Below are positions 5,328 to 21,432 of a stretch of 64,000 nt of DNA, in pieces; within the stretch, counting starts at the first letter, position 1; each line of letters begins with the position of its first letter. The stretch lies in assembly GCF_000473085.1 (NCBI RefSeq), contig NZ_AXBA01000013.1, forward strand, positions 1 through 64,000, read 5' to 3'. Below the pieces are notes generated by a model. The model had not been told where the DNA came from. It saw only the letters and a program-made list of their open reading frames with translations, and searched no databases. Origin of the DNA: Azorhizobium doebereinerae UFLA1-100. GTDB taxonomy: Bacteria; Pseudomonadota; Alphaproteobacteria; Rhizobiales; Xanthobacteraceae. Position numbers and translations under genes: made by a program.

Positions 5328-6275
5328 ATGGCTGATATCGCGGCGCACCGAGCGTCACCCTCCCCGTTCCGCGCCTGGCTTTCCAGGGTCGGGCAAGGGC
5401 GCCACCTCCTGGGGCTGCTGTTCCTGCTGCCGGCCGCGGTGTTCCTGCTGTTCTTCCTCACCTATCCGCTCGGCCTCGGCGTGTGGCTCGGCTTCACCGA
5501 CACCCGCATCGGCCGCGAGGGCGTGTTCATCGGGCTGGAAAATTACGAATCGCTGATGGGCGACAGCGTGTTCTGGCTGGCGGTGTTCAACACCCTGCTC
5601 TACACCATCGGCGCCTCGATCCTGAAGTTCGCGCTCGGCCTGTGGCTGGCCCTGCTGCTGAACCAGAACCTGCCGTTCAAGTCGTTCTTCCGCGCCATCG
5701 TGCTGCTGCCGTGGGTGGTGCCGACCGTGCTCTCGGCCATCGCCTTCTGGTGGATCTTCGACGCGCAGTTCTCGGTGATCTCCTGGGCGCTGATCAAGCT
5801 CGGGCTGATCGACCACAACATCAACTTCCTCGGCGACACCACCAACGCGCGCGCCTCGGTGATCGCCGCCAACGTGTGGCGCGGCATCCCGTTCGTGGCC
5901 ATCTCGCTGCTGGCGGGCCTCCAGACCATCCCGCAATCGCTGCACGAGGCGGCGACGCTGGACGGCGCCACCGGCTGGCAGCGCTTCCGCTACATCACCC
6001 TGCCCATGCTCTCGCCGATCATCGCGGTGGTGATGACCTTCTCGGTGCTGTTCACCTTCACCGACTTCCAGCTGATCTACGTGCTGACGCGCGGCGGGCC
6101 GCTCAACGCCACCCACCTCATGGCCACCCTCTCCTTCCAGCGCGCCATTCCCGGCGGCCAGCTGGGCGAGGGCGCGGCCATCGCGGTGGCGATGATCCCC
6201 TTCCTGCTGTCGGCGATCCTGTTCTCCTACTTCGGCCTGCAGCGCCGGAAGTGGCAGCAGGGCGGGGGCGACTGA
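5328..6275 (+). CDS. ABC importer permease, MalF/UgpA type
   Basis: 315 residues with six predicted membrane segments, starting with a hydrophobic stretch at about residues 24-48. It carries the cytoplasmic EAA loop EAATLDGATGWQRFRYITLP, which docks on the ATPase and defines binding-protein-dependent permeases. Length and topology fit the first permease of CUT1 importers. Its stop overlaps the start of the second permease as TGATG (6273-6277), so the two are translationally coupled and presumably form a heterodimer. Confidence 0.93.
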   Translation: MADIAAHRASPSPFRAWLSRVGQGRHLLGLLFLLPAAVFLLFFLTYPLGLGVWLGFTDTRIGREGVFIGLENYESLMGDSVFWLAVFNTLLYTIGASILKFALGLWLALLLNQNLPFKSFFRAIVLLPWVVPTVLSAIAFWWIFDAQFSVISWALIKLGLIDHNINFLGDTTNARASVIAANVWRGIPFVAISLLAGLQTIPQSLHEAATLDGATGWQRFRYITLPMLSPIIAVVMTFSVLFTFTDFQLIYVLTRGGPLNATHLMATLSFQRAIPGGQLGEGAAIAVAMIPFLLSAILFSYFGLQRRKWQQGGGD

Positions 6276-7234
6276 TGACCTCCGTGCCCTCTGCTCCCCC
6301 TTCCTCCCGCGCGGATCTCGTCATGACCGACCACAGCCAAGCCAAATCCGGCGTCTCGACGGTGGGGCTGACCGACAATTCCACCGGCATGAGCTATCTC
6401 GACAACGCGCCGCGGCGGTTCCTGACCGTCATCCTGCCGCTGCTGGTGTTCGTCTTCGTGCTGCTGTTCCCGTTCTACTGGATGGCCATCACCGCCATAA
6501 AGCCGAACCACCAGCTCACCGACTACGCCCATTATTCGCCGCTGTGGGTGGTGGGGCCGACGCTCGACCACATCAAGTATCTGCTGTTCGAGACCACCTA
6601 TCCGCACTGGCTGTGGAACACGCTCTACGTGTCGTTCTGCGCCACCTTCATCTCGCTGGTGACCTCGGTGTTCGCCGCCTATGCCATCGAGCGGCTGCGC
6701 TTCCACGGCTCGCGCTGGGTCGGGCTCGGCATCTTCCTGGCCTATCTGGTGCCGCCGTCCATCCTGTTCATCCCGCTGGCGCTGATGGTGTTCAAGATCG
6801 GCATCTACGACACCAAGCTGGCGCTGATCCTCACCTATCCCACCTTCCTGGTGCCGTTCTCCACCTGGCTGCTGATGGGCTATTTCCGCTCCATCCCCTA
6901 CGAGCTGGAGGAATGCGCTCTGGTGGACGGCGCCTCGCGCTGGCAGATCCTCACCAAGATCCTGCTGCCGCTCTCGGTGCCGGGGCTGATCTCGGCCGGC
7001 ATCTTCTCCTTCACCCTGTCCTGGAACGAGTTCATCTACGCTTTGACCTTCATCCAGTCGTCGGAGAACAAGACCGTGCCGGTGGGCGTGCTCACCGAGC
7101 TGGTGCGCTCGGACGTCTATGAATGGGGATCGCTGATGGCCGGGGCGCTGATCGGCTCGCTGCCGGTGGTGATCCTCTATTCCTTCTTCGTGGACTATTA
7201 CGTGTCCTCGATGACCGGCGCGGTGAAGGAATAG
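6275..7234 (+). CDS. ABC importer permease, MalG/UgpE type
   Basis: 319 residues from the ATG that overlaps the preceding stop (TGATG); an internal ATG at 6323 is an alternative start. The first membrane segment is at about residues 42-65 (FLTVILPLLVFVFVLLFPFY). The EAA loop reads EECALVDGASRWQILTKILL. The long polar N-terminus before it is common in MalG-like subunits. It completes the importer with the upstream permease, binding protein and ATPase. Confidence 0.93.
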   Translation: MTSVPSAPPSSRADLVMTDHSQAKSGVSTVGLTDNSTGMSYLDNAPRRFLTVILPLLVFVFVLLFPFYWMAITAIKPNHQLTDYAHYSPLWVVGPTLDHIKYLLFETTYPHWLWNTLYVSFCATFISLVTSVFAAYAIERLRFHGSRWVGLGIFLAYLVPPSILFIPLALMVFKIGIYDTKLALILTYPTFLVPFSTWLLMGYFRSIPYELEECALVDGASRWQILTKILLPLSVPGLISAGIFSFTLSWNEFIYALTFIQSSENKTVPVGVLTELVRSDVYEWGSLMAGALIGSLPVVILYSFFVDYYVSSMTGAVKE

Positions 7235-8063: not shown

Positions 8064-8366
8064 TCAGTGGATGTCGAACAGTGCCGAGAAGCCGGAGATG
8101 TCGAAGACTTCCTGGATCTGGGGCTGAAGCGACTTCAGGCGCAGCTTGCGCTTGTGCGGGCTCATGGCCTTGCCCGCCACCAGCAGCGCACGCAGGCCGG
8201 AGGACGACACGTAATCCACCCCCGCCATGTCCACCACGATGGCGCCGTTGGAGGCCTTCACCGCCTCCAGCAGCTGGCCCTCGAACGGCTTGGCGTTGAG
8301 CGTGTCCAGCCGGCCGCTCACCTTGAGCACCGTGTCTTCGCCGCTCGCTTCGGTCTCGATCTGCAT
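8064..8366 (-). CDS. STAS-domain anti-sigma-factor antagonist (SpoIIAA/RsbV type)
   Basis: A 100-residue single STAS domain. The phosphorylation loop reads DYVSSSGLRALLVAGK (around residues 51-66). In SpoIIAA/RsbV a Ser here is phosphorylated by the partner kinase and dephosphorylated by a SpoIIE-type phosphatase. It is the distal gene of a minus-strand run: RsbW-type kinase (10554-10111), Na+/Pi transporter, then this gene after a 55-nt gap. A RsbU-type phosphatase lies at 18017-20062. Together these supply all three partner-switching roles. Confidence 0.9.
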   Translation of the reverse strand: MQIETEASGEDTVLKVSGRLDTLNAKPFEGQLLEAVKASNGAIVVDMAGVDYVSSSGLRALLVAGKAMSPHKRKLRLKSLQPQIQEVFDISGFSALFDIH

Positions 8367-8421: not shown

Positions 8422-10086
8422 TCAACCACGGTCCTCGACAGCTTCCACCCGCCCGTTCTGCGCCGCAGCCGGAACGGACCACCCCTCCGGCGAATTATCC
8501 TCATTCGCCCGGGGGCGCAACGCCAAGGAGAGCCGCCGCACCAGCCAGAGCGCCCGTTCGAACAGGCTGGTGGCCCGCATCAGCGTGCGCACCTCGCTTC
8601 CGCCCGTGGCGCAGGAGGCGGCCAGGTCGCGGCGGATGCGGTCCAGAAGGTCGCTGCGGTCCCCGGTCAGGGCGTTGAGCACCTCAAGGTCGCCCTCGCC
8701 GGCCTCCTCCGGCACGGCGTCGGCCAGCACCAGCAGCACCGCGCGCAGCGATTCGGACAGGTTGAACACCAGCGGCGGCAGCGGATGGAAGGCGTCCACC
8801 ACCGCGCCGAACTCGTGCAGCGTCTCCTGCAACGCCCGCAGCAGGTCCACCTGGGCCTGCGCCCGCAGCGCGAGGTCGAGATCCTCGCGCGTCAGGCGCT
8901 GGTCGATCAGCTCGGTCAGGAAGCGGTCGGTCGCGGCGGCGATGGCCTCGGCGCCCTGCCAGGCCGCCAGCCGGGCCTTGGGCTCGTCGTGCGCGCGCTG
9001 GTCGAGGTCCGGCAGGATCGTCGGCAGGCAGACCACCAGACGGGCGGTCTCGCGGGCCACTAGGTCGAGCGCGGTGGGCGGATCGCTCACCGCCCGGTCA
9101 TGGATGAAATGCGGCCGCGAGAGCTTGTCCTCGCGGGTGGCCGGGCTGAAGCGGACGGCGATGGCCTCGCTCAGCCCGATCAGCGTCACCACCACCAGCG
9201 CCCCGCTGGCCTGGAGGGCGAAGAACACCACCGAGAGCGCGAAGGCCGGGTCCCGCCCGCTGCCGATGCGGCCGAGCATCACGTCGAGATTGAGGCCCGC
9301 CGCCATCACCGCCAGGGCCGCGCCGCCGACGATCAGGCAGCCCATCGCCTTGACCTGGATGGCGCTGACGCACAATTGCCGCCCCGCCCCCCGCATGTCG
9401 CCGGCCGAGATCAGCGTGGCGAGGCCGGAGCCGAGATTGGCGCCGACCACCAGGAACATGCCGTCCCCCAGCCCCAGCACCTGCGCCTGCACCACCGCCA
9501 CGGCGAGGATGGTGGGCGTGGAGGCGGACTGGGTGATGAGCGCCAGCAGGCAGCCCAGGAAGAAGCCGCGCGTCGGGGTGAGCAGTTCCCCCACCACATG
9601 GGCCGCCTGCGAGAGGTCGAGCCCGGCGGGGGCGGACTTGATGAAGTCGAGCCCGAGGAACAGCAAAGCGAGCCCGAGCAGCACGCCCATCCACTCGCGC
9701 CAGCCGGTGCGCTTGTCCATGCGCAGGTGGAAGGCCAGGCCGACGAGCGCCACCAGATAGAGCACCGCCACCTTGAGGTTGACGCTGGCGATGAAGACGA
9801 GGGCCGAGGTGCCCACATTGGCGCCGGCCACCACCGGAATGGCGTCCCGGGTGGCGAACACGCCGCCGCGCACCAGATTGGCGCAGATCAGCGTCACCGC
9901 GTTGCTCGACTGGGTGATGGCCCCGGCGACCATGCCGCACAGCACCCCGGCCGGGCGCGAGCCGGTGGCCATGCGCAGCAGCCGGCGCACCCGCCGGCCC
10001 ATGACCTGCTGCAGGTGCGCGCCCATGAGCTTCAGCCCGACGAAAAGCAGCCCGAGGCCGGCGAGAAGCTGCGCAGCAATCAACAC
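8422..10086 (-). CDS. Na+/phosphate cotransporter family protein (NptA-like) with PhoU-like tail
   Basis: 554 residues starting at GTG (10084-10086). The membrane half (about 1-300) holds two inverted repeats, each with the Q-S motif of NaPi-II type symporters: GAITQSSNAVTL and LITQSASTPTI. The cytoplasmic half (about 330-530) is helical and resembles the PhoU-like domain often attached to these proteins. It lies 24 nt after the RsbW-type kinase gene and 55 nt before the STAS gene, so it is embedded inside a signalling operon. This suggests that phosphate uptake, or a related anion flux, is tied to partner switching, which is inference. Confidence 0.88.
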   Translation of the reverse strand: MLIAAQLLAGLGLLFVGLKLMGAHLQQVMGRRVRRLLRMATGSRPAGVLCGMVAGAITQSSNAVTLICANLVRGGVFATRDAIPVVAGANVGTSALVFIASVNLKVAVLYLVALVGLAFHLRMDKRTGWREWMGVLLGLALLFLGLDFIKSAPAGLDLSQAAHVVGELLTPTRGFFLGCLLALITQSASTPTILAVAVVQAQVLGLGDGMFLVVGANLGSGLATLISAGDMRGAGRQLCVSAIQVKAMGCLIVGGAALAVMAAGLNLDVMLGRIGSGRDPAFALSVVFFALQASGALVVVTLIGLSEAIAVRFSPATREDKLSRPHFIHDRAVSDPPTALDLVARETARLVVCLPTILPDLDQRAHDEPKARLAAWQGAEAIAAATDRFLTELIDQRLTREDLDLALRAQAQVDLLRALQETLHEFGAVVDAFHPLPPLVFNLSESLRAVLLVLADAVPEEAGEGDLEVLNALTGDRSDLLDRIRRDLAASCATGGSEVRTLMRATSLFERALWLVRRLSLALRPRANEDNSPEGWSVPAAAQNGRVEAVEDRG

Positions 10087-10110: not shown

Positions 10111-10554
10111 TCAGGCTGCCTTGTGGGGGTCGGCGATGAGGGTGAAACGATTTTCATCCCCCGCCCGCTCATAGTCCAGGCCGGCGAGGAAGTGCCGCAT
10201 GAGCTGGACGCCATGTCCGCCGATACGGGCTTCCTCCACCGAGGCCGCAACTTCCGGCTCCCCCACCGAGAGCGGATCAAAAGCCAAGCCATTGTCGATG
10301 ATGCGCAGCGCCACCCGGTCGGCCGGCAGGCGGAAATAATCCACCCGGATGCGCGGCGGATGCGCCAGGCCCTCGAAGCCGTAGGAGATGACGTTGGCGA
10401 GCGCCTCCTCCAGGCTGAGCTCCAGCCCGAAGCGCATGCGCTCCGGCCAGCCGTCCTGCTCGGCCAGTTCGTTGAGCCAGTCCGAAACGCGCGGCAGGTC
10501 GTCGATGCTGGGCGCCACGTCCAGGCTCGCGGCGGCTCTGTCAAATCCGCTCAT
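10111..10554 (-). CDS. RsbW/SpoIIAB-type serine kinase (HATPase_c_2 anti-sigma factor)
   Basis: 147 residues with the GHKL ATP-binding fold in its short RsbW form. The N box is SLEEALANVISYG, with the Glu and Asn needed for Mg-ATP. The G1 box is RIIDNGLAFDP and the G2-like loop is ARIGGHGVQLMRHF, followed by an ENRFTLI strand. In the family this kinase phosphorylates its STAS antagonist or binds a sigma factor or other target. The STAS partner is two genes downstream at 8064-8366. No sigma factor gene is adjacent, so the output target is unknown. Confidence 0.9.
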   Translation of the reverse strand: MSGFDRAAASLDVAPSIDDLPRVSDWLNELAEQDGWPERMRFGLELSLEEALANVISYGFEGLAHPPRIRVDYFRLPADRVALRIIDNGLAFDPLSVGEPEVAASVEEARIGGHGVQLMRHFLAGLDYERAGDENRFTLIADPHKAA

Positions 10555-10795: not shown

Positions 10796-11974
10796 TCATG
10801 CCGCGCCGCCCGCCGCCTGCCCCCGTCCGGCCCGCAGCCCCGCCGGCTCCGCCCGCTCCGGCGCCTCGTGATAGATGCGCCTGGCGCGATGCCCGGCCGC
10901 CACCATCACCGCATTGGGCGCGATACCGGCGGCGGCGGCGAGCTGGTCCACCGGCAGGCGGGGGCCGAACAGTTCCACCCGCGCGCCGGGCACCGCCACG
11001 CCTTCGGGCAGATGGCTCACGTCCACCGTCATCAGGCTCATGGCGACGCCGCCGACCACCGGCACCAGATGCCCGCCGATCCCGGCATGGGCCTGGTGGC
11101 GGAAGGAAAACGGCACGCCGTCGCCATAGCCGGCGGCCACATGGGCGAGGCGGCAGGCGTGGGCGGTGCGATAGGTGCCGCCATAGCCCACCTCGACGCC
11201 CGCCGGCACGTCCATGACGCGCAGGATGGGCGCCGACAGGCGGGCGGCCAGCTCGATGGGCTGCGGCCGGGCGGGCGTGGTCTCCACCCCGTAGATGGCG
11301 CTGCCGACGCGGGCATGGCTGGCGTGCCGCGCCGCCGGGCCGAACACCCCGGCGGAGGCGCAGAAGCTCAGGGTCGCCTCGGGCAGCGCCCCGGTCCAGG
11401 CCCGGAACCGGCGCCATTGCTGGGCGTTGCGGCGCGCGACGGGATCGGCGAACCGCGCCAGGTGGGTCACATAGGCGGCGATGCGCAGGCCGGAGAAGGC
11501 CGCCGGCGTGTCGCGCAGGCGCCGCACGTCGGCCAGCGAGAGGCCGAGGCGGGTCAGGCCGGTGTCGAACTGGATGGCGATGTCGAACGCCCCGCGCTGC
11601 GCCGCCTCGGCGCGGGCCACGGGCAGTTCGGCGGCATCGATCAGCACCGGCACCAGCCGGTGGGCGCGGAACTCGCCCGCCGGCGCGCCGGCAAGGCCGT
11701 GCAGCACGAAGACCCGCGCCTGCGGCGCCAGCGCCCGCACCGCCACGCCTTCCTCGAAGCTCACCACCCAGAAGTCGCGGCAGCCCAGCGACGCGAGCAG
11801 CGGCACGATGCGCGCCGCGCCGAAGCCATAGGCGTCCTGCTTGACCACCGCGCCCACCGTGGGGCCGGTGAAGACATCCCGAACCGTCTGCCAATTGCGC
11901 CGGATCGCGCCGAGATCGATCTCCAGGATCGCCTGGTCGCTGCTCGTCCCGCTGGCTCTATCCGCCGGACACAT
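10796..11974 (-). CDS. alr: Alanine racemase (PLP-dependent)
   Basis: 392 residues. The PLP lysine is in GAVVKQDAYGFGA near the N-terminus; most Alr proteins read VKA(N/D)AYGHG, so Lys-Gln-Asp and Phe are small deviations. The second-domain tyrosine region VGYGGTYRTA is present. The first ATG is at 11974, with a TTG at 11980 as alternative. It overlaps the end of the GNAT gene by 17 nt, so it is translated with it. Being encoded in a sensor/transport operon rather than near cell-wall genes suggests a special role, for example a D-amino acid used as signal or nutrient (inference). Confidence 0.9.
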   Translation of the reverse strand: MCPADRASGTSSDQAILEIDLGAIRRNWQTVRDVFTGPTVGAVVKQDAYGFGAARIVPLLASLGCRDFWVVSFEEGVAVRALAPQARVFVLHGLAGAPAGEFRAHRLVPVLIDAAELPVARAEAAQRGAFDIAIQFDTGLTRLGLSLADVRRLRDTPAAFSGLRIAAYVTHLARFADPVARRNAQQWRRFRAWTGALPEATLSFCASAGVFGPAARHASHARVGSAIYGVETTPARPQPIELAARLSAPILRVMDVPAGVEVGYGGTYRTAHACRLAHVAAGYGDGVPFSFRHQAHAGIGGHLVPVVGGVAMSLMTVDVSHLPEGVAVPGARVELFGPRLPVDQLAAAAGIAPNAVMVAAGHRARRIYHEAPERAEPAGLRAGRGQAAGGAA

Positions 11975-12650
11975 AGACAATCGCCGCCCCTTCCGCCCCC
12001 TGCCGCGCGGCCACGCCGCGCCAGCCGGCCTTCAGCAGCGCCACCTGTCCCTCGGCATCGGCGGGCGACATCAGCCGGGTGTCCCGTGGCGTGATGTCGG
12101 TTCCATCGCGAACCATCAGATAGCGCAGATGCCCCCCGTAATAAGGCACCAGCGCGCGAATGGCGAAGCCTTCCGACAGCAGATTGATCCAGCTCGCCGG
12201 ATTTCCGGGGGCGGAGGTGGCGAACAGGATGTCGCCCGGCTGCGCCAGGCGGACGCGGGCGGCGATCAGGGCGCGCTGAAGCTTCTGCCCGCGATGGGCC
12301 GGGGCCACCGAGGCGCCGGCGAGCTTGGCCACCGGCGCGTCGGCCGGGGCACCGATATGGGGGCGCGGATCGTCATAGGCCGGCAGCACGCGCTGGAGCA
12401 CGCCGTAGGCGACCAGCTCGGGCTCAGCGCCCGCCCGGTCCGCGCCATCCCCGTCCGCGAACACCCCGACCATCCGGCCGCGCCCGCCGAGGATGCCGGC
12501 GAAGAAATCCCGGGTCTCCGGCTTCACCACCTCGGGCCGGATGGCCTCGCCGATGGCCTGCCGGTGCAGCGCGTAGACCGCGTCGAGGTCCGGCGGGCCG
12601 AGCGCCCGCCAGGACAGCGCGTCCCCGGCGGCCGGGCCGTCGATGCTCAT
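11958..12650 (-). CDS. GNAT-family N-acetyltransferase
   Basis: 230 residues. The acetyl-CoA pyrophosphate loop is visible as ASVAPAHRGQKLQRALIAAR, corresponding to the V-x-P-x-x-R-G-x-x-x pattern of motif A. It is followed by a typical ATSAPGNPASWINLLSEGF segment, where a neighbour-of-substrate Asn and a late aromatic Tyr (VPYYGG) occur. The start overlaps the stop of the binding-protein gene as ATGA (12650-12647), indicating translational coupling. The substrate is unknown. Co-transcription with alr and a binding protein suggests an amino acid or related amine. Confidence 0.75.
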   Translation of the reverse strand: MSIDGPAAGDALSWRALGPPDLDAVYALHRQAIGEAIRPEVVKPETRDFFAGILGGRGRMVGVFADGDGADRAGAEPELVAYGVLQRVLPAYDDPRPHIGAPADAPVAKLAGASVAPAHRGQKLQRALIAARVRLAQPGDILFATSAPGNPASWINLLSEGFAIRALVPYYGGHLRYLMVRDGTDITPRDTRLMSPADAEGQVALLKAGWRGVAARQGAEGAAIVYVSGG

Positions 12651-13669
12651 CCCGTGACCAGCTCGGCGTAATTGAGCATGGCGATGGGCGGGTAGATGCC
12701 GAGCGACTTGGCGATACGCATGTTGATGATGAGCGAGAAGCGCTTCAGCGTCTCGATCGGGATCTTGCTCGCCGGGGTGCCGCGGGCGAGGATCTCCACC
12801 GCCTTGGTGCCGGCGAGCTGGCCGACGGAATAATAGCGGCTCACCAGCCCCACCAGCGCGCCGCCCTCGCGGATCGCCAGCTCGGCGGCGCCGAAGGTGG
12901 GCAGCCCGGCGGCCAGCGCCGCCGGCGTCACCCGGTCGTAGATCGTCCCGAGGAAGGTGTCGGGCAGCAGATAGAGCCAGTCCGCCTTGTCGGCGCGGAG
13001 CTGGGCGACCATGTCCTCCACGCCCTCGGCGGTGGGACGGCCGCTGGCGTCGTTCTTGAACGGGCGGGCCAGCACCTTGGCGCCCATGCCGTCGCAGAAG
13101 GCCTTCACCTCGCGGACGATGACGTCGGAATTCTGCTCGCTGGTGGAATAGAGGATGCCGACGGTGGAGAAGTCCATGAAGGACTGCATCGCCTTCATCT
13201 GCACGTCGGTGGGCACCACGTGCACCGCGCCGGTCACGTTGCGGCCGGGGGCGGCGAAGCTCGGGGCGATGCGCGCCTGCACCGGCGCGGCCACCAGGGC
13301 GAACACCACCGGGATGTCGCGGATGAACTTGGGGTCGGTCGAATCGAACGGTCCCGCCACCCCGAGGGTGAGCGGCGTGCCCCAAGTGTAGATGAGGTCC
13401 GGCTTCAGCGTGGCGAGGTCGGCGATCATCGACGGCAGGTTGGCGATGTCCCGCCGCGCGTCGCGCGAGATGATCTCGGTCTTCAGCCCGGCGGTGTCCA
13501 GCAGGTCGCGGAAGCCGCGCTCCACGTCGGTCTCGCCGCGGAAGGTGAGCATCAGGATCTTGTAGGTCTTGCCCGTGTCGGCGGACAGGCCGCGCGGCAG
13601 CGCCAGCGACGCGCCCGCGCCGACGCCGAGGGACAGAAGCGAACGACGATCCAGCATGGGCCTCCTCAT
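12647..13669 (-). CDS. ABC-type substrate-binding protein, TrpX-like (ABC_sub_bind family)
   Basis: 340 residues. The N-terminus MLDRRSLLSLGVGAGASLAL is a Tat-like twin-arginine signal with an A-rich core. The mature part has two alpha/beta lobes typical of periplasmic binding proteins of the TrpX/YufN-like group: YKILMLTFRGETDVERGF, PDLIYTWGTPLTLGV, TVGILYSTSEQNSD and an AELAIREGGALVGL segment. The start overlaps the MFS gene stop as ATGA (13669-13666). No ABC permease or ATPase gene is nearby, so the protein may serve as a ligand receptor for the neighbouring membrane sensors rather than for import (inference). Confidence 0.88.
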   Translation of the reverse strand: MRRPMLDRRSLLSLGVGAGASLALPRGLSADTGKTYKILMLTFRGETDVERGFRDLLDTAGLKTEIISRDARRDIANLPSMIADLATLKPDLIYTWGTPLTLGVAGPFDSTDPKFIRDIPVVFALVAAPVQARIAPSFAAPGRNVTGAVHVVPTDVQMKAMQSFMDFSTVGILYSTSEQNSDVIVREVKAFCDGMGAKVLARPFKNDASGRPTAEGVEDMVAQLRADKADWLYLLPDTFLGTIYDRVTPAALAAGLPTFGAAELAIREGGALVGLVSRYYSVGQLAGTKAVEILARGTPASKIPIETLKRFSLIINMRIAKSLGIYPPIAMLNYAELVTG

Positions 13670-15642
13670 GGCACCGAAGCCTCCTCGGGAGCGGCCGGCG
13701 ACCCGCGGTCGCGGCGCGCCGGCACGCGGCCGGACAGGATGAATGCCGCCGCGCCGAATACCACTAGGCCACCCACGGTCATCATGGAAGTTACGAATCC
13801 GACACTTCCCAAAAGGAAGCCGGCGGCGGCGGGGCCGACCGCATTGCCGCTGCGCTCCACCAGCCGGAACAGGCCGAGCACCCCGGCCGAATGGCCGCCC
13901 GGCACATGGCGGGCGCTGTCGGCGACCAGGGCGGACTGCGGCGCGATCGACATCGCCTGGCCGATGCCGAGCAGCGCCAGCACCAAAGCGAGGATCACCG
14001 GCGAGGTGCCGAAGGCCACCAGCAGCGCCCCCGCCCCGGCCAGCGTGCCGCCGGCGGCGACGAAGCCGGCGCGCGCCGACCAGCGGTCGGCCAGCGCCGC
14101 GAACAGCGGCACGCCGAGCACCATGATGACCGGGTAGATCATCTGCAGCCGGCCGACGGCGGCCGAGGAGAAGCCCTCGCGCTGGAGCTCCACCGGGATC
14201 AGGTAGAAGCACAGCGCGGCGAGGATGAACTTGGCCGGGAAGGCGCAGCCGAACAGCAGCGCGGCGAGGCGCGGCGCCTGGATGGCGGCCTTCAGGTCGG
14301 TGAGGCCGAGGCCGTGCGCGCCGCCGCGCCGCTGCGAGGCCGGCAGGCTCAGCCCGGCCAGCACCAGCGCCAGGGCGGCGAGGCCGCCGGAGAACAGGAA
14401 GGCGATGTTGCCGCCCAGCCGGTCGCCGATCACGCCGCCGATGGGCGGCCCGCACAGCGCCGCCACCATGATGGCGCGCACGAAGACCGCGAGCCCCTCG
14501 GCCCGCTCGGAGGGGGCGGAGCGATCCACCACGTGGCCCTGGGCGGAGACGAACACCAGAGCGTAGCCCACCGCCGACAGCACGCGGGCGCCGAGGAAGA
14601 CGAAATAGCTCCCCGTCAGCCCCGACAGCACGTAGCCGCAGGCGGCGAGCCCGGCGCCGAGCATGAAGCCGCCGCGCCGGCCGATGCGCTCGGACAGCGC
14701 GGCGAACGGCAATTGGCAGAGCGCCACCGCCGCCATGAAGGCGACGATGGGCAGGCTGATGGCCACGTCCGGGCTGATCGGCAGGCTGGCCGGGGCGATC
14801 GACTGCACGTAGCGCGGCAGGAACGGGCGGGTCAGTTCCTCCGCCAGCATGAACAGGAACAGCGCCGGGCGGACCACCGCCGCCGCCTGGTTGCCGACGC
14901 TGTGGACCGAGCCGAGCCCGGTCTTGGCCGCCACCGCGTCCAGCGTCGCCAGCGCCCGGGCATCGCCCCGCCGCTCGGCCTCGTCGCGGGCGAAGGCGTG
15001 GCGCGAGGCCAAGGCGTTCAGCTGCCGGTCGATGGGGGCGATGAGGCGGTCGCCGTCGGCGCCCTCATGCCGCACCAGCCGGCCGCGCGCCAGGTCGCGC
15101 ACCCGCGCCTCGACCCCGGCCAGCACGCTGACGCCGCGCGCGCCGACCACCAGGGCCACCAGTTCCAGCGCGATCAGCAGGGCGACGACGCCGATGAAGG
15201 CGACATCGACGAGCACCGCCGCCACCTGCTCGGAAATGATGCTCGGGTCGATGAAGATGACGATGTCGCCGAGGCTCGGCCCATCCTCCACCGCCACCGG
15301 GACGCGGACCTGCGGCCAGTCGGGCTGCTCGCGCTCGCCGGACTGGAACAGCACGGTGCCGCCCTGCGTCAGGCGGATCTCGGACAGTTCGCTGTTCTGG
15401 CTGCGCAGATCCTCGAAATAGGCGGGCACGCCGGCCAGCTTCTCCATCGGGATGCCGGCCTCCACCGCGGTCTCCACCAGCGCGGCGGCGGAGCGGCCGA
15501 CCGATTCGGCCTTGGCGACGATGGTCGGGACGATGGTGCGCACGGCGGCGCGCTGCGCGCCCCAGGCGATCATGCCGAGCGCGGCGCACAGGATGACGAT
15601 GATGGCGGCGGAGATGCCGCCGCGCAGGCCGATGCCGATCAC
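13666..15642 (-). CDS. Periplasmic-sensor domain fused to an MFS transporter
   Basis: 658 residues, far longer than the usual ~400 of MFS proteins. Residues 10-30 are a membrane helix. Residues 31-140 form a cache/PDC-like extracytoplasmic domain (GIPMEKLAGVPAYFEDLRSQ, then IRLTQGGTVLFQSGE). Residues 143-167 are a second helix and 168-240 a HAMP-like helical linker. From about 250 a complete 12-helix MFS permease follows, with motif A as LSERIGRRGGFMLG near 317-330. The GTG start (15642-15640) overlaps the stop of the upstream sensor gene as GTGA. The sensor part resembles the plus-strand sensor at 17199-18017. Such a design would let a periplasmic signal gate or report transport (inference). 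Confidence 0.85.
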   Translation of the reverse strand: MIGIGLRGGISAAIIVILCAALGMIAWGAQRAAVRTIVPTIVAKAESVGRSAAALVETAVEAGIPMEKLAGVPAYFEDLRSQNSELSEIRLTQGGTVLFQSGEREQPDWPQVRVPVAVEDGPSLGDIVIFIDPSIISEQVAAVLVDVAFIGVVALLIALELVALVVGARGVSVLAGVEARVRDLARGRLVRHEGADGDRLIAPIDRQLNALASRHAFARDEAERRGDARALATLDAVAAKTGLGSVHSVGNQAAAVVRPALFLFMLAEELTRPFLPRYVQSIAPASLPISPDVAISLPIVAFMAAVALCQLPFAALSERIGRRGGFMLGAGLAACGYVLSGLTGSYFVFLGARVLSAVGYALVFVSAQGHVVDRSAPSERAEGLAVFVRAIMVAALCGPPIGGVIGDRLGGNIAFLFSGGLAALALVLAGLSLPASQRRGGAHGLGLTDLKAAIQAPRLAALLFGCAFPAKFILAALCFYLIPVELQREGFSSAAVGRLQMIYPVIMVLGVPLFAALADRWSARAGFVAAGGTLAGAGALLVAFGTSPVILALVLALLGIGQAMSIAPQSALVADSARHVPGGHSAGVLGLFRLVERSGNAVGPAAAGFLLGSVGFVTSMMTVGGLVVFGAAAFILSGRVPARRDRGSPAAPEEASVP

Positions 15643-16304
15643 GGCCGCCCCCCCGCCGGGCTGGCGTCGCGCTTCAGCACGGCGGCATGGGCGGCGTCGA
15701 CGCTCGCCAGCGCGGCGCGGGCGGGCTCCGGCCAGGAGCCGGGGTCCGCCGCCCGCCGCAGCGAGCGCCTGAGGCTGGCGGCCAGCAGCAGGCCGACCGC
15801 GATGGTGGCGAGCGCCGCCGCCGCCAGGGTCGGGATGGCGATGAAGCGCAGGTCCGCGGCCAGCGCCTCGGCGCCGGCGGCCAGGATCACCGGGTCGTAA
15901 TGCACGATCACCCGGCCGATCCGCGCCTCCAGGTCGTTCTCCATCACCCGCGACACGCTGTCGGCGGGGTGCGCGGGTTCGTCACGCCCGGCGCGGTCCG
16001 GATCGCTGCTGAACAGCACGTGGCCGCGCTCGTCCGCCACGTCGATGGCGCGGATGGCGGTATCGATTCGCGCCTCCCGCCGCAGCAGGTCCGGCAGTGT
16101 CTGCTGCGCCGGCAGGGCGATGCCCAGGCCCGACGCCAGCTCCGCCGTGGCGCCGATTCGCTGCGCGGTGATGGCGAAGCGCGCCTCCACCGCGGCACGG
16201 TTGGCGTTGAGCAGGGTGGCGTAGGCGAAATAGGCGCCGAAGGCCACGCAGGCCGCGGCAATCATGGCGAACAGGGCGATCAGGACGGCAGTGGTACGGG
16301 TCAT
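15639..16304 (-). CDS. Membrane sensor-like protein without output domain (sensor A)
   Basis: 221 residues from ATG 16304; a GTG at 16331 is possible. Two membrane helices (about 5-28 and 150-172) flank an extracytoplasmic domain of about 120 residues. This domain contains GIALPAQQTLPDLLRREARI and AIDVADERGHVLFSSD, a pattern common in the sensor regions of histidine kinases and chemoreceptors. Only about 45 polar residues follow the second helix, so there is no kinase, phosphatase or cyclase domain. It is the first gene of the minus-strand operon, overlapping the sensor-MFS gene by 4 nt. Its domain is most like sensor B on the other strand. Confidence 0.7.
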   Translation of the reverse strand: MTRTTAVLIALFAMIAAACVAFGAYFAYATLLNANRAAVEARFAITAQRIGATAELASGLGIALPAQQTLPDLLRREARIDTAIRAIDVADERGHVLFSSDPDRAGRDEPAHPADSVSRVMENDLEARIGRVIVHYDPVILAAGAEALAADLRFIAIPTLAAAALATIAVGLLLAASLRRSLRRAADPGSWPEPARAALASVDAAHAAVLKRDASPAGGRP

Positions 16305-16465
16305 TTCGGCGCGGCTCGGGGGGCAGGTCACTGTGTCAGGCGACGCATGCGATGGAAAGCGGTTTGGTGGGGAGTGGCTTTTTTGACCCGGTTCCGGTTT
16401 TTGCTCTGGTTTGGCGACGAGCGTGCGGCTAACGTCCCGCCGGCCTGCCTATTACCGTCTGCTTC
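16305..16465. promoter_or_regulatory. Divergent promoter region between the two sensor operons
   Basis: 161 bp between sensor A and sensor B. It contains a T-rich patch with TTGACC at 16383-16388 on the plus strand as a possible -35 element, but a convincing -10 element was not found. No GGAAC-N16/17-CGTT (EcfG-type) element is seen on either strand. Confidence 0.45.
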
Positions 16466-17212
16466 ATGACTTTTGTCGGTCGACTCGCATTATTCGTTGC
16501 CGCAGCTCTGCTCGCGACCCTGCTGGTCGTGGCGACGGGGGCCTTTTTCGCGAGTCAAAAAGTCACCGCCGACATCGAGCGGGCCCGGGTATCCCACCTG
16601 CTGGGCAGCCTGCGCAGCGCCACCGAGGCCAACCTCGCCATCGGCCTGGCGCTCGACCAGGTGTCCTCGCTCCAGGCGCGCATCGAGCGCGAGACGGCGG
16701 CGGACGCGGCGGTGCAGGCCATCGACGTGTTCAACGCCCAGGGCCGCTCGGTCTACAGCACCGATCGCGGCGCGGTGGGCGAGGAGGTGCCGCCCGCCTG
16801 GACCACCCAGATGCGCGACGACGGCATCTGGACCGTCCCCGGCCGCGGCGAGACGGTCTACGTCACCCGCTTCGACAACGACCTGGGCTTTGCCGGCGGC
16901 ATCGCCGTGTCGGTCTCCGACGACGCCCGCGCCAACCGCAACGAGCGCATGCTGGTGGACCTCGCCTGGCGCACGCTGGCCGTCGGAGGCGCCGGCATCC
17001 TCGCCGCCGGCCTCCTGGCCTTCGCCTTCGGCGCGCTGATGACCCGGCCGTTCGGCAACGCGGCGCGCATCCTGCGCGGCGAGGCGGCGTCCGCCCCCGC
17101 CGGCCGCGGCCTCGAACAGCTGGCGCAGCAGACCCGGCGCACCTGGACCCGCAGCGAGGAGCGCATCGACGCCGGCCTCAAGCAGCTGGAGGCGCTCGAT
17201 GACGGGATCTGA
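16466..17212 (+). CDS. Membrane sensor-like protein without output domain (sensor B)
   Basis: 248 residues with membrane helices near 5-27 and 172-192 and an extracytoplasmic domain between them. The domain carries ANLAIGLALDQVSSLQARIE and VQAIDVFNAQGRSVYSTD, which aligns by eye with sensor A (AIRAIDVADERGHVLFSSD). After the second helix there is only a short basic/helical tail (about 55 residues). The last 14 nt overlap the start of sensor C. It is the first gene of the plus-strand operon ending in the phosphatase, so it probably forms a complex with it (inference). Confidence 0.7.
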   Translation: MTFVGRLALFVAAALLATLLVVATGAFFASQKVTADIERARVSHLLGSLRSATEANLAIGLALDQVSSLQARIERETAADAAVQAIDVFNAQGRSVYSTDRGAVGEEVPPAWTTQMRDDGIWTVPGRGETVYVTRFDNDLGFAGGIAVSVSDDARANRNERMLVDLAWRTLAVGGAGILAAGLLAFAFGALMTRPFGNAARILRGEAASAPAGRGLEQLAQQTRRTWTRSEERIDAGLKQLEALDDGI

Positions 17213-18017
17213 CGAGGCCCTGCCGCGCGGCCGCGCCCGGCTGCTCACCGGCCTGTTCGCCTTCCTGCTCACGCTGCTGGTCGGCGGCGTCGGCGGCGCC
17301 GTGCTGGTGTCCGGCTTCAAGGCCAGCGTCGAGGAGACCGCCCGGCGCGACGTCACCGTGATCGGCGGCTCGCTCGCCCGCGCCCTCGCCATGCAGTTCG
17401 AGAAGGCGGCGCGGTTCGGCATCCCGCTCAAGCTCATTCCCGGCGTCGAGGGCTATCTCGCCCAGACCCTGAACCAGACGCCGGGCATCGCCCGCATCGT
17501 GGTGCGCGGCCCGGACGGGCGCGAGGTGCGCAGCGCCATCGGGCCGCTGGCCGGCACCGACACGGTGTCCGCGCCGATCGCCGTGGATGGCCTCGCCCTC
17601 GGGCAGGTGGACGTGACCACCAGCCCGCTCGCCTTCAGCGGCACCTTCGCCGCCCTGACCCTCCAGGTGGCCGGCGCCGTGCTGGCGTTCGCCGCCGTGG
17701 CCGGCATCGCCTCCGGGCTGGTGGCCGGCGGCGCCCTGGAACGGCGGCGGCAGCGCCTCGCCGCCGCCATGGCGCACAATGTGGCCGGCGAGTTGGACGG
17801 AGGGCCGCAATCGGCCGCCATCGGCCGCTCGCCGGTGGCGCAGGCGTTCGAGGCTTTGTCCCGCGGCGCCCGCCGGGTCGGCGACAAATGGGCCGCCTTC
17901 CAGGCCTATGCGGAAGAATTGCTGGCGGTTGATTTCGACGGCCGGCTGCGGCCGGAGGTGGAACGCATCCGGCGCGAGGCGCTGCCGCGCGGCAGCCAGA
18001 GCGAGCGGGGCAGCTGA
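17199..18017 (+). CDS. Membrane sensor-like protein without output domain (sensor C)
   Basis: 272 residues, with membrane helices near 15-38 and 148-175. The extracytoplasmic part contains FGIPLKLIPGVEGYLAQTL and ARIVVRGPDGREV, followed by APIAVDGLALGQVDV. This matches the N-terminal sensor of the MFS fusion (GIPMEKLAGVPAYFEDL, then VPVAVEDGPSLGDIVI) more than sensors A or B. The cytoplasmic tail of about 95 residues is helical with no recognisable enzyme domain. It overlaps sensor B by 14 nt and shares TGATG (18015-18019) with the phosphatase gene. Confidence 0.7.
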   Translation: MTGSDEALPRGRARLLTGLFAFLLTLLVGGVGGAVLVSGFKASVEETARRDVTVIGGSLARALAMQFEKAARFGIPLKLIPGVEGYLAQTLNQTPGIARIVVRGPDGREVRSAIGPLAGTDTVSAPIAVDGLALGQVDVTTSPLAFSGTFAALTLQVAGAVLAFAAVAGIASGLVAGGALERRRQRLAAAMAHNVAGELDGGPQSAAIGRSPVAQAFEALSRGARRVGDKWAAFQAYAEELLAVDFDGRLRPEVERIRREALPRGSQSERGS

Positions 18018-20062
18018 TGCTTCTGCGCACCCGCATCACCCTTCTCGTCGCCGCCGGCTTCGTCGTGCTGGTGGGCTGCTTCCTTGGCCTCCTCGTGCTG
18101 CGCGACCGCATGGAGGAGGACCGCCTGTCCAATGTGGTGATCCTCGGCCAGGGCGCGCTGTGGCGCGAGATCGTCACCGTCCAGTCCGCCACCCTGGAAA
18201 AGAGCCTCGACACCGTCGCCGGCTCGGCCAGCCTGATGGCCTCCCTGCGCAGCACCGACCGCGGCGCGACGCTGGCGGCGCTCAACGGGCTGGACATCTT
18301 CTCCGACACCACCCCGCCGATCTATGAGGTGGTCGCCGAGGACCGCGAGGTGCTGGTGGCCAACGGCACGCCGGGGCGCGGGCTGCTGGACGCGGACAGC
18401 ATCGACCGGGTATTCGCCGGGCAGAATGTCTCCGGCCTGCGCCAGGTCTCGGCCAACCAGATCCTGGTGGTGGCGGCGCGGCGGGTCACCTTCTCCGACG
18501 GCGAGCAGGCCATGCTGGTGCTCGGCCGCGACGCCGGGGCGGCGGTGCGCCGCTTCGCCGCCAGCATCGAGGCCACCACCACCCTGATCACCCTGCGCGG
18601 CGTGCTCGCCGCCACCACCAATGCGGAGGCCTGGCGCAAGGCCGGCCTCGTCATCTCGCCGCGCCAGCCGCTGCGCGAGACGGTGGCGCTGGACGGCCGC
18701 ATCTTCAGCGTCACCAGCATCCCGGTTCCCGATGTCAGCGGCGGCACCGTGGGCGCGCTGGTGAGCATGGTGGACAATACCGAGGGCATCACCAACGCCC
18801 AGGGCATCCGCCGCGCCGGCATCGCCGTCAGCCTCGGGCTGTCGCTCATCGGCATCATCGGCCTCAACATGTTCCTGTGGTACAGCTTCCGGCCGCTGGA
18901 ACGGGCCATCGACGTGCTCCAGGCGCTGTCGCGCGGCGACACCTCGGTGACGCTGGAGCACCAGGGCAAGGACGAGATCGGCCGCATCGCCGCCGCCGTG
19001 GTGGCGTTCCGGGCCAATGCCCAGGCGCTGGCCGAGACCCGCCGCCAGCGCGAGCGGGTGCGCCGCCGCCAGGAAGTGGTGATCTCCGCCGAATTGCAGG
19101 CCCTGGCCGACGCCATCGACCCCACCGACCGCGAGGAAGTGCTGGCGCTGCTGCGCTCCGACACCGATACCGGCGAGGACGAGCTGCGCCGCGTCGCCCG
19201 CGTGCTGCACGATCTGTCGCGGCGCATCGTCGAGCAGCACACCCGGCTGTCCGCCATGGTGGTGGAACTGCGCGAGGCCCTGATCACCAAGACCAAGCTG
19301 GCCGGTCTCCAGCAGGAGCTGGAGATCGCCGCGCAGGTGCAGCTCGCCATCCTGCCGAAGGAATTCCCGCCCAATCCGCGCATCGCCGTGCACGGCCACA
19401 TGACCCCGGCCCGCGAGGTCGGCGGCGATTTCTACGACTACTTCCTGATCGACGACCAGACGCTCGGCTTCGTGGTCGCCGACGTGTCCGGCAAGGGCGT
19501 GCCGGCGGCGCTGTTCATGGCCATCTCGCGCACCCTGCTGCGCTCGACCGCGCTGTTCGAGCGCTCGCCGTCCAGCAGCGTCCGCCGCCTCAACGACCTG
19601 CTGGCGCTGGAAAACGAGCAGATGCTGTTCGTGACCCTGTTCTACGGCGTCATCGACCTGGAGAGCGGCAAGGTCTCCTACGTCAACGCCGGCCACAATT
19701 TGCCGTACAAGATCACCCAGGCCAACGCCGTCTCCATCGTGCCCTCCACCCGCGGCATGGCGGTGGCGGTGATGGAGGGCTTCGTCTACCAGGAAGGCGA
19801 GCTGACCCTGTCGCCGGGCGACACGCTGTTCCTCTACACCGACGGCGTGACCGAGGCGTTCGACGTCGACGGCAACGCCTATGGCGACGACCGGCTGGCG
19901 CACCTGCTGACGGAGGACGCCGCCCACTGGCCGGTGCCGGAGACGCCGCAGCGCGTGCTGGCCTCGGTGCGCGCCTTCGAGCGCGGCGCGCCGCAGGCGG
20001 ACGACATCACCTGCCTGACCCTGCGCTATTTCGGCGGCAGCGCCCGGCGCCACAGCCTGTAG
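18017..20062 (+). CDS. Sensor-HAMP-SpoIIE (RsbU-type) serine phosphatase
   Basis: 681 residues. The first membrane helix is at about 7-28, followed by a large extracytoplasmic sensor (30-265), a second helix (267-288), HAMP (289-342, SFRPLERAIDV... KDEIGRIAAA) and a helical linker (343-440). A PP2C-type phosphatase of the SpoIIE/RsbU group follows (about 455-680). All metal-binding motifs are intact: VGGDFYDYF (near 468-476), VADVSGKGVPAAL (487-499), LFLYTDGVTEAFD and ADDITCLTL. Such enzymes dephosphorylate STAS antagonists; the likely substrate is the STAS protein at 8064-8366. The start shares TGATG with sensor C. Confidence 0.95.
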   Translation: MLLRTRITLLVAAGFVVLVGCFLGLLVLRDRMEEDRLSNVVILGQGALWREIVTVQSATLEKSLDTVAGSASLMASLRSTDRGATLAALNGLDIFSDTTPPIYEVVAEDREVLVANGTPGRGLLDADSIDRVFAGQNVSGLRQVSANQILVVAARRVTFSDGEQAMLVLGRDAGAAVRRFAASIEATTTLITLRGVLAATTNAEAWRKAGLVISPRQPLRETVALDGRIFSVTSIPVPDVSGGTVGALVSMVDNTEGITNAQGIRRAGIAVSLGLSLIGIIGLNMFLWYSFRPLERAIDVLQALSRGDTSVTLEHQGKDEIGRIAAAVVAFRANAQALAETRRQRERVRRRQEVVISAELQALADAIDPTDREEVLALLRSDTDTGEDELRRVARVLHDLSRRIVEQHTRLSAMVVELREALITKTKLAGLQQELEIAAQVQLAILPKEFPPNPRIAVHGHMTPAREVGGDFYDYFLIDDQTLGFVVADVSGKGVPAALFMAISRTLLRSTALFERSPSSSVRRLNDLLALENEQMLFVTLFYGVIDLESGKVSYVNAGHNLPYKITQANAVSIVPSTRGMAVAVMEGFVYQEGELTLSPGDTLFLYTDGVTEAFDVDGNAYGDDRLAHLLTEDAAHWPVPETPQRVLASVRAFERGAPQADDITCLTLRYFGGSARRHSL

Positions 20063-20220
20063 GCCGGCCGGCGGCAACCACCACATTACCGTCTGTCCTG
20101 CGGCGCCGGCGGCGGGCCATGTGCGTGGAGCATTGCTCCCGCCGTTTCCGCGCGGCGCGAACCAGGGTACTAACCCTCAAGCCGGCCCGCGAATACGAGA
20201 CCGGCGTCCGGAGAAGCGCC

Positions 20221-21432
20221 GTGTCCGTAGCCGCAGCCCGCCTGCCCGCCCCTTCGCGCGAGTTCGCCACCATCTCCGCCGTGGGCACGGCCCATTTCAC
20301 CAGCCATCTGCTCCAGCTCTCCTTCGCGCCCTTGTTCATCGCCATGCGCGCGGACCTCGGCGTGTCCTTCACCGAGCTGGGCCTGCTGCTCTCGGTCTTC
20401 TATCTCGCCTCCGGCTCCGGCCAGGTGCTGGCGGGCATCCTGGTGGACCGCTTCGGCGCCCACCGGCTGCTGCTGGGCGGCATGGCGCTGCACGGCGGCG
20501 CCATCGCCGCCGTGGGGCTGGCGCCGACCTATTGGCTGATGCTGCCGCTGGTGCTGCTGGCCGGGCTCGGCAATGCGGTCTACCACCCGGCGGACCTCTC
20601 CATCCTCAGCCACCGCATCTCGCCGGAGCGGCTCGGCCGGGCGTTCGCCGCCCATGTGATCGCCGGCAACTTCGGCTTCGCAGCCTCGCCCCTGGTCTCC
20701 GGCGCGCTGGCGCTGGCGTTCGGCTGGCGGGTGGCGCTCACCACCATGGGCCTCGCCGCGCTGGGGCTGACCCTGGCGCTGGTCCTGGTCCGCCCGGTGC
20801 TGCACAGCCCCACCAGCCACGAGCACGCCAAGGCGGGCGGCGAGACCGCCCCGCCGCTCTCCTTCACCCGCGTGCTGATGATGCCCGTGGTGTTGCTGGC
20901 CTTCCTCTATTTCTTCCTGTCCTCGCTGGCGCTGGTGGGGATCCAGAACTTCAGCATCGCGGCGTTGCAGGAGGGCTTCCTGTTCTCGGCCGGCTTCGCC
21001 ACGCTGACCATCACCGCCTACCAGCTCGCCACCGCCGCCGGCGTGCTGGCCGGCGGGGTGCTGGCCGACCGCGCCACCCACCACCACCGCATCGCCATGA
21101 GCGGGCTCGCCGCCGCCGCCGTCTGCGCGGCGCTGATCCCGCTCGGCGCGCCGCCGGCCTTCGTCACCGCCGGGCTGCTGATCGGCATCGGCCTCGCCAT
21201 CGGGCTGTCCATGCCCTCGCGCGACGTGCTGGTGCGCCGCGCGGCGCCCAAGGGGGCGACGGGCAAGGTCTTCGGCGTGGTCTATTCGGGCTTCGACATC
21301 GGCTCGCTGGGGGCCCCGCTCGTCTATGGCGCGCTGATGGACCACCATTTCTCGCGGATGGTGTTCCTGGCCGCGGCGGTGCCGCTCTGCCTCGCCATCT
21401 TCACCGCGCTCGGCGTCAAGCGGGCCTACTGA
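20221..21432 (+). CDS. MFS transporter (fosmidomycin-resistance/Fsr-like)
   Basis: 403 residues from GTG 20221, with ggaga (20210-20214) at 6-nt spacing. Twelve hydrophobic segments are seen. The motif A equivalent is GILVDRFGAHRLLLGG after helix 2, and the GNAVYHPADLSILS segment is typical of the Fsr-like MFS subfamily of drug or small-molecule exporters. It begins 158 nt after the phosphatase gene and has its own ribosome site, so it may be co-transcribed or independent. The substrate is unknown. Confidence 0.88.
   Translation: MSVAAARLPAPSREFATISAVGTAHFTSHLLQLSFAPLFIAMRADLGVSFTELGLLLSVFYLASGSGQVLAGILVDRFGAHRLLLGGMALHGGAIAAVGLAPTYWLMLPLVLLAGLGNAVYHPADLSILSHRISPERLGRAFAAHVIAGNFGFAASPLVSGALALAFGWRVALTTMGLAALGLTLALVLVRPVLHSPTSHEHAKAGGETAPPLSFTRVLMMPVVLLAFLYFFLSSLALVGIQNFSIAALQEGFLFSAGFATLTITAYQLATAAGVLAGGVLADRATHHHRIAMSGLAAAAVCAALIPLGAPPAFVTAGLLIGIGLAIGLSMPSRDVLVRRAAPKGATGKVFGVVYSGFDIGSLGAPLVYGALMDHHFSRMVFLAAAVPLCLAIFTALGVKRAY

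Follow-up and report, generated by a model that had tools for sequence, protein, structure and literature searches.

Partner switches composed of a PP2C phosphatase, a STAS antagonist and a HATPase kinase are exemplified by RsbU/RsbV/RsbW and by RbaV/RbaW/RbaY from Rhodobacter, as outlined in the relevant part of PMC3999984, and domains of these three kinds were identified in a 64,000-nucleotide stretch of Azorhizobium doebereinerae UFLA1-100, which is referred to here as the window. Next to the domains of a SpoIIE/PP2C phosphatase and of a HATPase_c_2 kinase, i.e., parts of an Rsb-type partner switch, the locus in question encodes four sensor proteins, named A, M, B and C, which are distributed over two divergent operons. 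While RbaY is described as possessing a receiver domain (PMC3999984), the phosphatase of the window is a membrane protein with a HAMP domain, alongside which the four extra sensor domains and a periplasmic binding protein are found. A list of gene products which is nearly that of the window locus is given for the btr locus of Bordetella, which affects type III secretion and comprises BtrV (STAS), BtrW (kinase), alr, BtrO (MFS), BtrU (SpoIIE phosphatase) and BtrN ('ABC transporter'; Table 3 of PMC7498569). This likeness is one of published names only, and the table holds one gene of the major facilitator superfamily (MFS) and no separate small sensors, whereas the window holds a duplicated receptor unit. 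Transporter folds that act as or beside a sensor, as assumed here for sensor M, are known from UhpC, which works with UhpB, and from CbrA, an SLC5 transporter fused to a histidine kinase (PMC8871633). Compared with UhpC and CbrA as far as they are portrayed there, the window differs in that its MFS domain is joined to a Cache-like domain of the periplasm, that a serine phosphatase is the likely output and that the transporter half of one paralogue has decayed. Among the open-licence papers in PubMed Central, no description of the locus was found. Considering the data reported below, the locus probably represents a duplicated receptor unit of the transceptor type which provides the input to a single Rsb-type partner switch. 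The genes which carry this view are the following:

15639..16331, minus strand: sensor A, transmembrane helix, single Cache/PAS-like periplasmic domain, transmembrane helix and short cytoplasmic tail
13666..15642, minus strand: sensor M, transmembrane helix, sensor domain and transmembrane helix fused to an MFS domain (residues ~250-640)
16466..17212, plus strand: sensor B, of the type shared with A
17199..18017, plus strand: sensor C, an M-type sensor without MFS domain, predicted to adopt a single Cache/PAS-like fold
18017..20062, plus strand: membrane phosphatase with periplasmic region, HAMP domain (E = 5.8e-10) and SpoIIE-type PP2C domain (PF07228, E = 8e-50)
12647..13669, minus strand: periplasmic binding protein (ABC_sub_bind, PF04392, E = 6.5e-28), TrpX-like at a score under the NCBIfam cut-off

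For sensor A, an ATG at ~16304 appears to be the likelier start as compared to the GTG at 16331, as the respective methionine is aligned in most orthologues.

Pairing and fold of the four sensors

In an earlier note on this DNA the sensors were proposed to form two similar pairs, A with B and C with M, and each operon was proposed to hold one member of either type. The latter is the case, with A and M being encoded on the minus and B and C on the plus strand; the range assigned there to the sensors (15639-18017) takes in A, B and C and omits the gene of the MFS-fused sensor. When pairwise local alignments were compared to 500 shuffles, the highest z values were obtained for A-B (10.1) and C-M (8.4), followed by the cross pairs A-M (6.4), B-M (4.1), A-C (3.8) and B-C (2.7). 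As shuffled sequences lose the patterning of membrane helices, the comparison of profile versus profile on the extracytoplasmic residues is the better test, and hhalign profiles restricted to these residues were built from the window's family and one metagenome-assembled genome. Here, A-B reached 94.1% (E = 1.3e-7) and C-M 97.4% (E = 1.3e-11), with the cross pairs A-M, A-C, B-M and B-C at 35.6%, 27.0%, 1.5% and 0.25%, respectively. A second run, to which two outgroup genomes were added, yielded 97.0% for A-B and 99.4% for C-M, and the cross pairs climbed as well (A-M 95.3%, A-C 95.0%, B-C 80.2%, B-M 74.3%), from which it follows that all four sensors derive from one ancestral domain. The comparison of whole-sensor profiles likewise identified A-B and C-M as top pairs, and the one other match of B in the window's own genome was A (E = 4e-4). 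The sequence comparisons hence confirm that the four domains constitute two matched paralogous pairs, A-B and C-M, the profiles having revealed neither a lack of significant pairing nor four equally distant domains. The motifs by which the pairs had been recognised are literally present in A and M; B and C have no literal match, B reading AVQAIDV instead of AIxAIDV and C possessing Y-x4-L and IAVDG.

An AlphaFold2 model of the window's sensor C, computed with 71 related sequences, reached a confidence (predicted local distance difference test) of 90 and predicts a long helix formed by the first transmembrane segment and a stalk, a short helix, a four-stranded sheet and then the second transmembrane helix (TM2). 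The top structural match was the periplasmic domain of a LapD orthologue (4u64; Z 12.2, root-mean-square deviation (rmsd) 3.4, 117 aligned residues), close to which a Clostridium kinase sensor was placed (4onx; Z 12.1, rmsd 2.5, 94 aligned residues), and CitA (Z 9.3) and DcuS (Z 9.2) were matched too. Structural matching, including a Foldseek search, was made for C, whereas A, B and M were assigned as Cache/PAS-like by profile homology; the sequence profile reaches solved structures mainly via TM2 and HAMP. The predicted fold of C is thus like that of the single Cache/PAS-like sensors CitA and DcuS, but for the window's sensors no Pfam Cache model scored over its cut-off, the best being sCache_3_2 for A (E = 0.034, 14.7 bits versus 28.4) and none being matched by B, C or M. 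The sensors are therefore called Cache/PAS-like by fold and are not placed in a named Cache family. No Pfam or NCBIfam domain at all was found over cut-off in A, B or C.

Conservation of the locus and duplication of the sensors

Sensor C was detected in 13 of the 101 relatives searched, the window's genome being counted, and one of the 13 was spurious: the match in genome G044, which contains internal stops and has no other locus gene within 20 kb, was dropped. Among named relatives, Azorhizobium oxalatiphilum is the closest, its C being 77% identical (L003, on the same contig as L029; L numbers denote loci in relatives). A phylum-wide search with the C and M profiles matched 336 of 398 genomes because the stretch from TM2 to HAMP is generic, and served to choose loci with strong matches and not for counts. 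Matches at the level of the order (148 of 397 genomes) were mostly weak partial stretches, and 20 of these genomes were fetched; at the level of the class the A and B profiles matched 30 of 385 genomes, 19 of which were fetched. Subsequently, 53 regions (the window, L004 and 51 fetched ones) were annotated with hidden Markov models. The divergent form was found in 28 loci (the window, L004, L020-L029, L092-L104, L112-L114) and tandem double units in five (L105, L121, L127, L128, L130), with L153 from a separate set being the sixth. One genome possesses two units ~36 kb apart (L125, L126), and a single unit was seen in 15 loci, some of them near contig ends (L106-L108, L110, L111, L115-L117, L119, L120, L122-L124, L129, L131). 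At the contig ends of L030 and L109 the side encoding B, C and the phosphatase is found alone; L118, likewise at a contig end, was excluded from the architecture counts. Across these loci gene order is conserved: 46 of 48 M sequences and 33 of 35 C sequences are immediately preceded by the small sensor. On the downstream side, C is followed by the phosphatase or by the sensor half of it in 34 of 35 cases (the miss being L129) and M by the binding protein in 43 of 48, the misses being L123, L128 and L130 as well as L004 and L124, which are cut by contig ends.

For both sensor types, trees were calculated, that of C and M (85 rows) by a quick IQ-TREE run and that of A and B from 82 rows. In the former, M of all divergent loci except L113 and L114 forms one clade (26 rows, support 99), a C clade comprises 32 of the 35 C rows (support 90), and the M rows of single-unit loci fall outside both clades. 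The A/B tree is parallel to it, A (26 rows, support 99) and B (30 rows, support 88) each forming a clade, which suggests a joint duplication of both sensor types that long predates the family of the window. A single C clade was not rejected by the approximately unbiased test on 77 rows (p 0.779), for which eight long rows were left out (L105_C, L126_C, L105_M, L131_M, L107_M, L110_M, L129_C, L109_C). The duplication of a two-sensor unit, as put forward in the earlier note, is borne out by the parallel trees and by the existence of single-unit loci.

Probable fate of the MFS half and likely partners of the sensors

The MFS domain of M is a good one (PF07690, MFS_1; E = 3.9e-44, 151.4 bits versus a cut-off of 33.4). 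Sensor C stops after its cytoplasmic helix in the window, L004 and L022-L030, and in the other 18 of the 28 divergent loci it continues into a membrane tail, which measures ~300 to 380 residues and shows 8 to 12 hydrophobic peaks. This tail is a degenerate homologue of the MFS domain of M: as a profile, 22 aligned C tails (tandem loci included) matched the latter at 96.8% (E = 2.5e-10) and the MFS family encoded 3' of the phosphatase at 14.5%, while that family matched the MFS domain of M at 99.2%. With a model of C from L095 including its tail, Foldseek placed MFS chains at the top of the list, at a high rmsd (9 Å and more). When three of the 22 C tails were scanned with Pfam, none reached the MFS_1 cut-off (L020 with 26.7 bits, L021 and L095 with no match), and the strict loop motif A of MFS proteins is present in 21 of 46 M and in none of 22 C tails; a relaxed, motif A-like pattern (33 of 46 versus four of 22) separates both groups less cleanly, so that the motif says little about a loss of transport. 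In single-unit loci the sensor was found to be fused to an MFS domain in 14 of 15 cases, L129 being the exception, and in five of five cases of a second set. These MFS-fused single units together with the relationship between C tails and the MFS domain of M make it most likely that C lost an MFS domain and not that M acquired one, and that the ancestral unit consisted of a small sensor followed by a sensor-MFS protein. The simplest history would be that the sensor-MFS gene was duplicated and that one MFS domain decayed, until it disappeared from the family of the window and perhaps also from G367 (L109). The reverse order, in which an MFS-less two-sensor unit was duplicated and one member was joined to an MFS transporter later, had been assumed in the earlier note and would be in line with the one fused and one unfused sensor of the window and its family relatives, as well as with L129, whose two-sensor fusion without MFS would fit or represents another loss; yet the frequency of MFS-fused single units and the tails of C make this order improbable.

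Natural fusions bear on the question of which sensors work together. An A-type sensor, an M-type sensor and an MFS domain are combined in one open reading frame (ORF) in L152 and L159, which belong to one genus, and in L153, where a separate B-C-phosphatase unit adjoins the fusion; L129 (10044-11135) combines A-type and M-type sensors without MFS domain, followed by the binding protein. In L128 and L130 one protein comprises both the C-type sensor and the phosphatase. From the A-M fusions in four loci and the C-phosphatase fusions in two it was reasoned that A-M and B-C are the units and C the neighbour of the phosphatase, so that A-M and B-C are the likelier partners as compared to A-B and C-M. 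Heterodimers formed across the operons, namely A-B and C-M, would agree with the general knowledge that paralogous periplasmic sensors often dimerise and with both operons beginning at one gap; they are nevertheless considered unlikely, since the fusions seen join A-type to M-type sensors and never A to B or C to M, and since single-unit loci must function without a second pair. Of the earlier interpretation, the duplication and the possibility of heteromeric assembly are thus retained, while the pairs named there for testing become the less likely ones and the order of MFS fusion is reversed. A further explanation takes M as a normal transporter that carries its sensor for regulation, whereby the partner switch would govern transport and not the reverse. 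The good MFS domain kept by M and the greater frequency of its motif A-like string speak for this idea; the position of C, whose MFS domain has decayed or is absent and which nevertheless adjoins the phosphatase in 34 of 35 cases and was fused to it twice, fits an input rather than an output, and only a minor probability is assigned to M serving transport in this way.

Several observations weigh against a duplicated receptor unit with a partner switch as its output. For the units of A, M and binding protein in L152, L154, L155 and L159, no phosphatase, kinase or STAS match was found in the 20 kb fetched, meaning that the unit does not go with a partner switch in every relative. Of the C rows, three (L105, L126, L129) do not group with the C clade, and tandem loci are placed poorly in the A/B tree, hence a single duplication is not proven; in L113 and L114, M lies outside the M clade and C inside the C clade. 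Furthermore, the model of the L095 tail is poor past residue ~445, and the L153 fusion matches the A type only weakly, with 18 bits. Fusion in cis documents that the parts can work together, which is no proof that the unfused ones bind each other, and both structure predictions are of single chains, not complexes.

Proposed connection to the partner switch and other outputs

From the gap at ~16.4 kb the minus operon runs via A, M and the binding protein into the following genes:

11958..12650, minus strand: GNAT-like acetyltransferase, a conserved neighbour (Pfam match under cut-off)
10796..11980, minus strand: alanine racemase, found in only some relatives
10111..10554, minus strand: RsbW-like HATPase_c_2 switch kinase (PF13581, E = 1.1e-15)
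8422..10086, minus strand: Na/Pi-cotransporter family protein, between the kinase and STAS genes
8064..8366, minus strand: RsbV-like STAS antagonist (TIGR00377, E = 7.4e-20), in which the serine motif VSSSGLR was read by eye

From A to the racemase, the genes overlap by 4 to 23 bases (4 each for A/M and M/binding protein). The plus operon begins with B and C, after which come the HAMP-PP2C phosphatase and an MFS gene, with an overlap of 14 bases between B and C and of 1 base between the stop of C and the start of the phosphatase. No sigma-70-like promoter was found around the gap between A and B. The MFS gene 3' of the phosphatase (~20180-21432, plus strand) has counterparts in L004 and L022-L030 and belongs to another MFS family than M. 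An ABC permease is absent from the operon of the binding protein; one (BPD_transp_1; 5336-7231, plus strand) lies ~5 kb past the binding protein, on the opposite strand and not within the operon.

That the receptor unit functions as input to the partner switch is inferred from the order of the genes, from their fusions and from the identity of the domains, and so are the physical complexes, the reception of ligand by the binding protein, the direction of signalling and the target. In the suggested mechanism, the copy consisting of A and M, which stays with the periplasmic binding protein, would receive the ligand, whereby the MFS domain of M may serve as transporter or transceptor. The copy consisting of B and C, which stays with the HAMP-PP2C phosphatase, would relay the state to the latter. 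The active phosphatase would then dephosphorylate the STAS protein, which as a consequence would change its partnership with the RsbW-like kinase.

In relatives, other outputs were found. The protein following C in L113 (12974-15160) and L114 (4761-6947) keeps the sensor half and the HAMP domain of the phosphatase, with Guanylate_cyc (class III cyclase) and not PP2C as its output, and in L020 (17574-19367) and L095 (2496-4226) the RsbW-like kinase shares its ORF with a class III nucleotide cyclase domain as a fusion protein. RsbW ORFs of similar length are present in L096, L098, L112, L117 and L127, of which the two scanned (L117, L127) gave no cyclase match; separate cyclases adjoin the locus in L100 and L120. 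Flanking ORFs, hand-chosen and one to five in number each, were scanned at 27 loci, several of these ORFs being without family match and perhaps not genes, and secretion genes were identified near seven of these 27. Components of type VI secretion (TssK, FHA, AAA/ClpV-like, TssG, VgrG, VasJ/ImpA) lie beside or around the receptor unit in L105, L110, L152, L154 and L155, type III/flagellar export genes that belong to the FlhB/YscU and FliR/YscT families beside the single unit of L123 (8353-10232) and a secretin beside that of L131 (3719-5923); among the neighbours scanned beside the window no secretion gene turned up.

Taking these contexts together, it may tentatively be proposed that a small Cache-like sensor, a Cache-MFS transceptor and an orphan binding protein form a widespread, as yet unnamed receptor module, which is coupled to partner switches, to nucleotide cyclases and to clusters of secretion genes. 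Within Hyphomicrobiales and their relatives, this module would have been doubled to a two-storey receptor, the decayed transporter serving as adaptor between receptor and phosphatase. The succession of intact, degenerate and absent MFS domains represents an intermediate series for a transporter turning into a signalling part. The locus provides a concrete model of how a periplasmic signal could reach a partner-switch phosphatase via a transporter-like receptor, and it suggests possible roles for the unassigned MFS, racemase and ABC-type genes of the btr locus.

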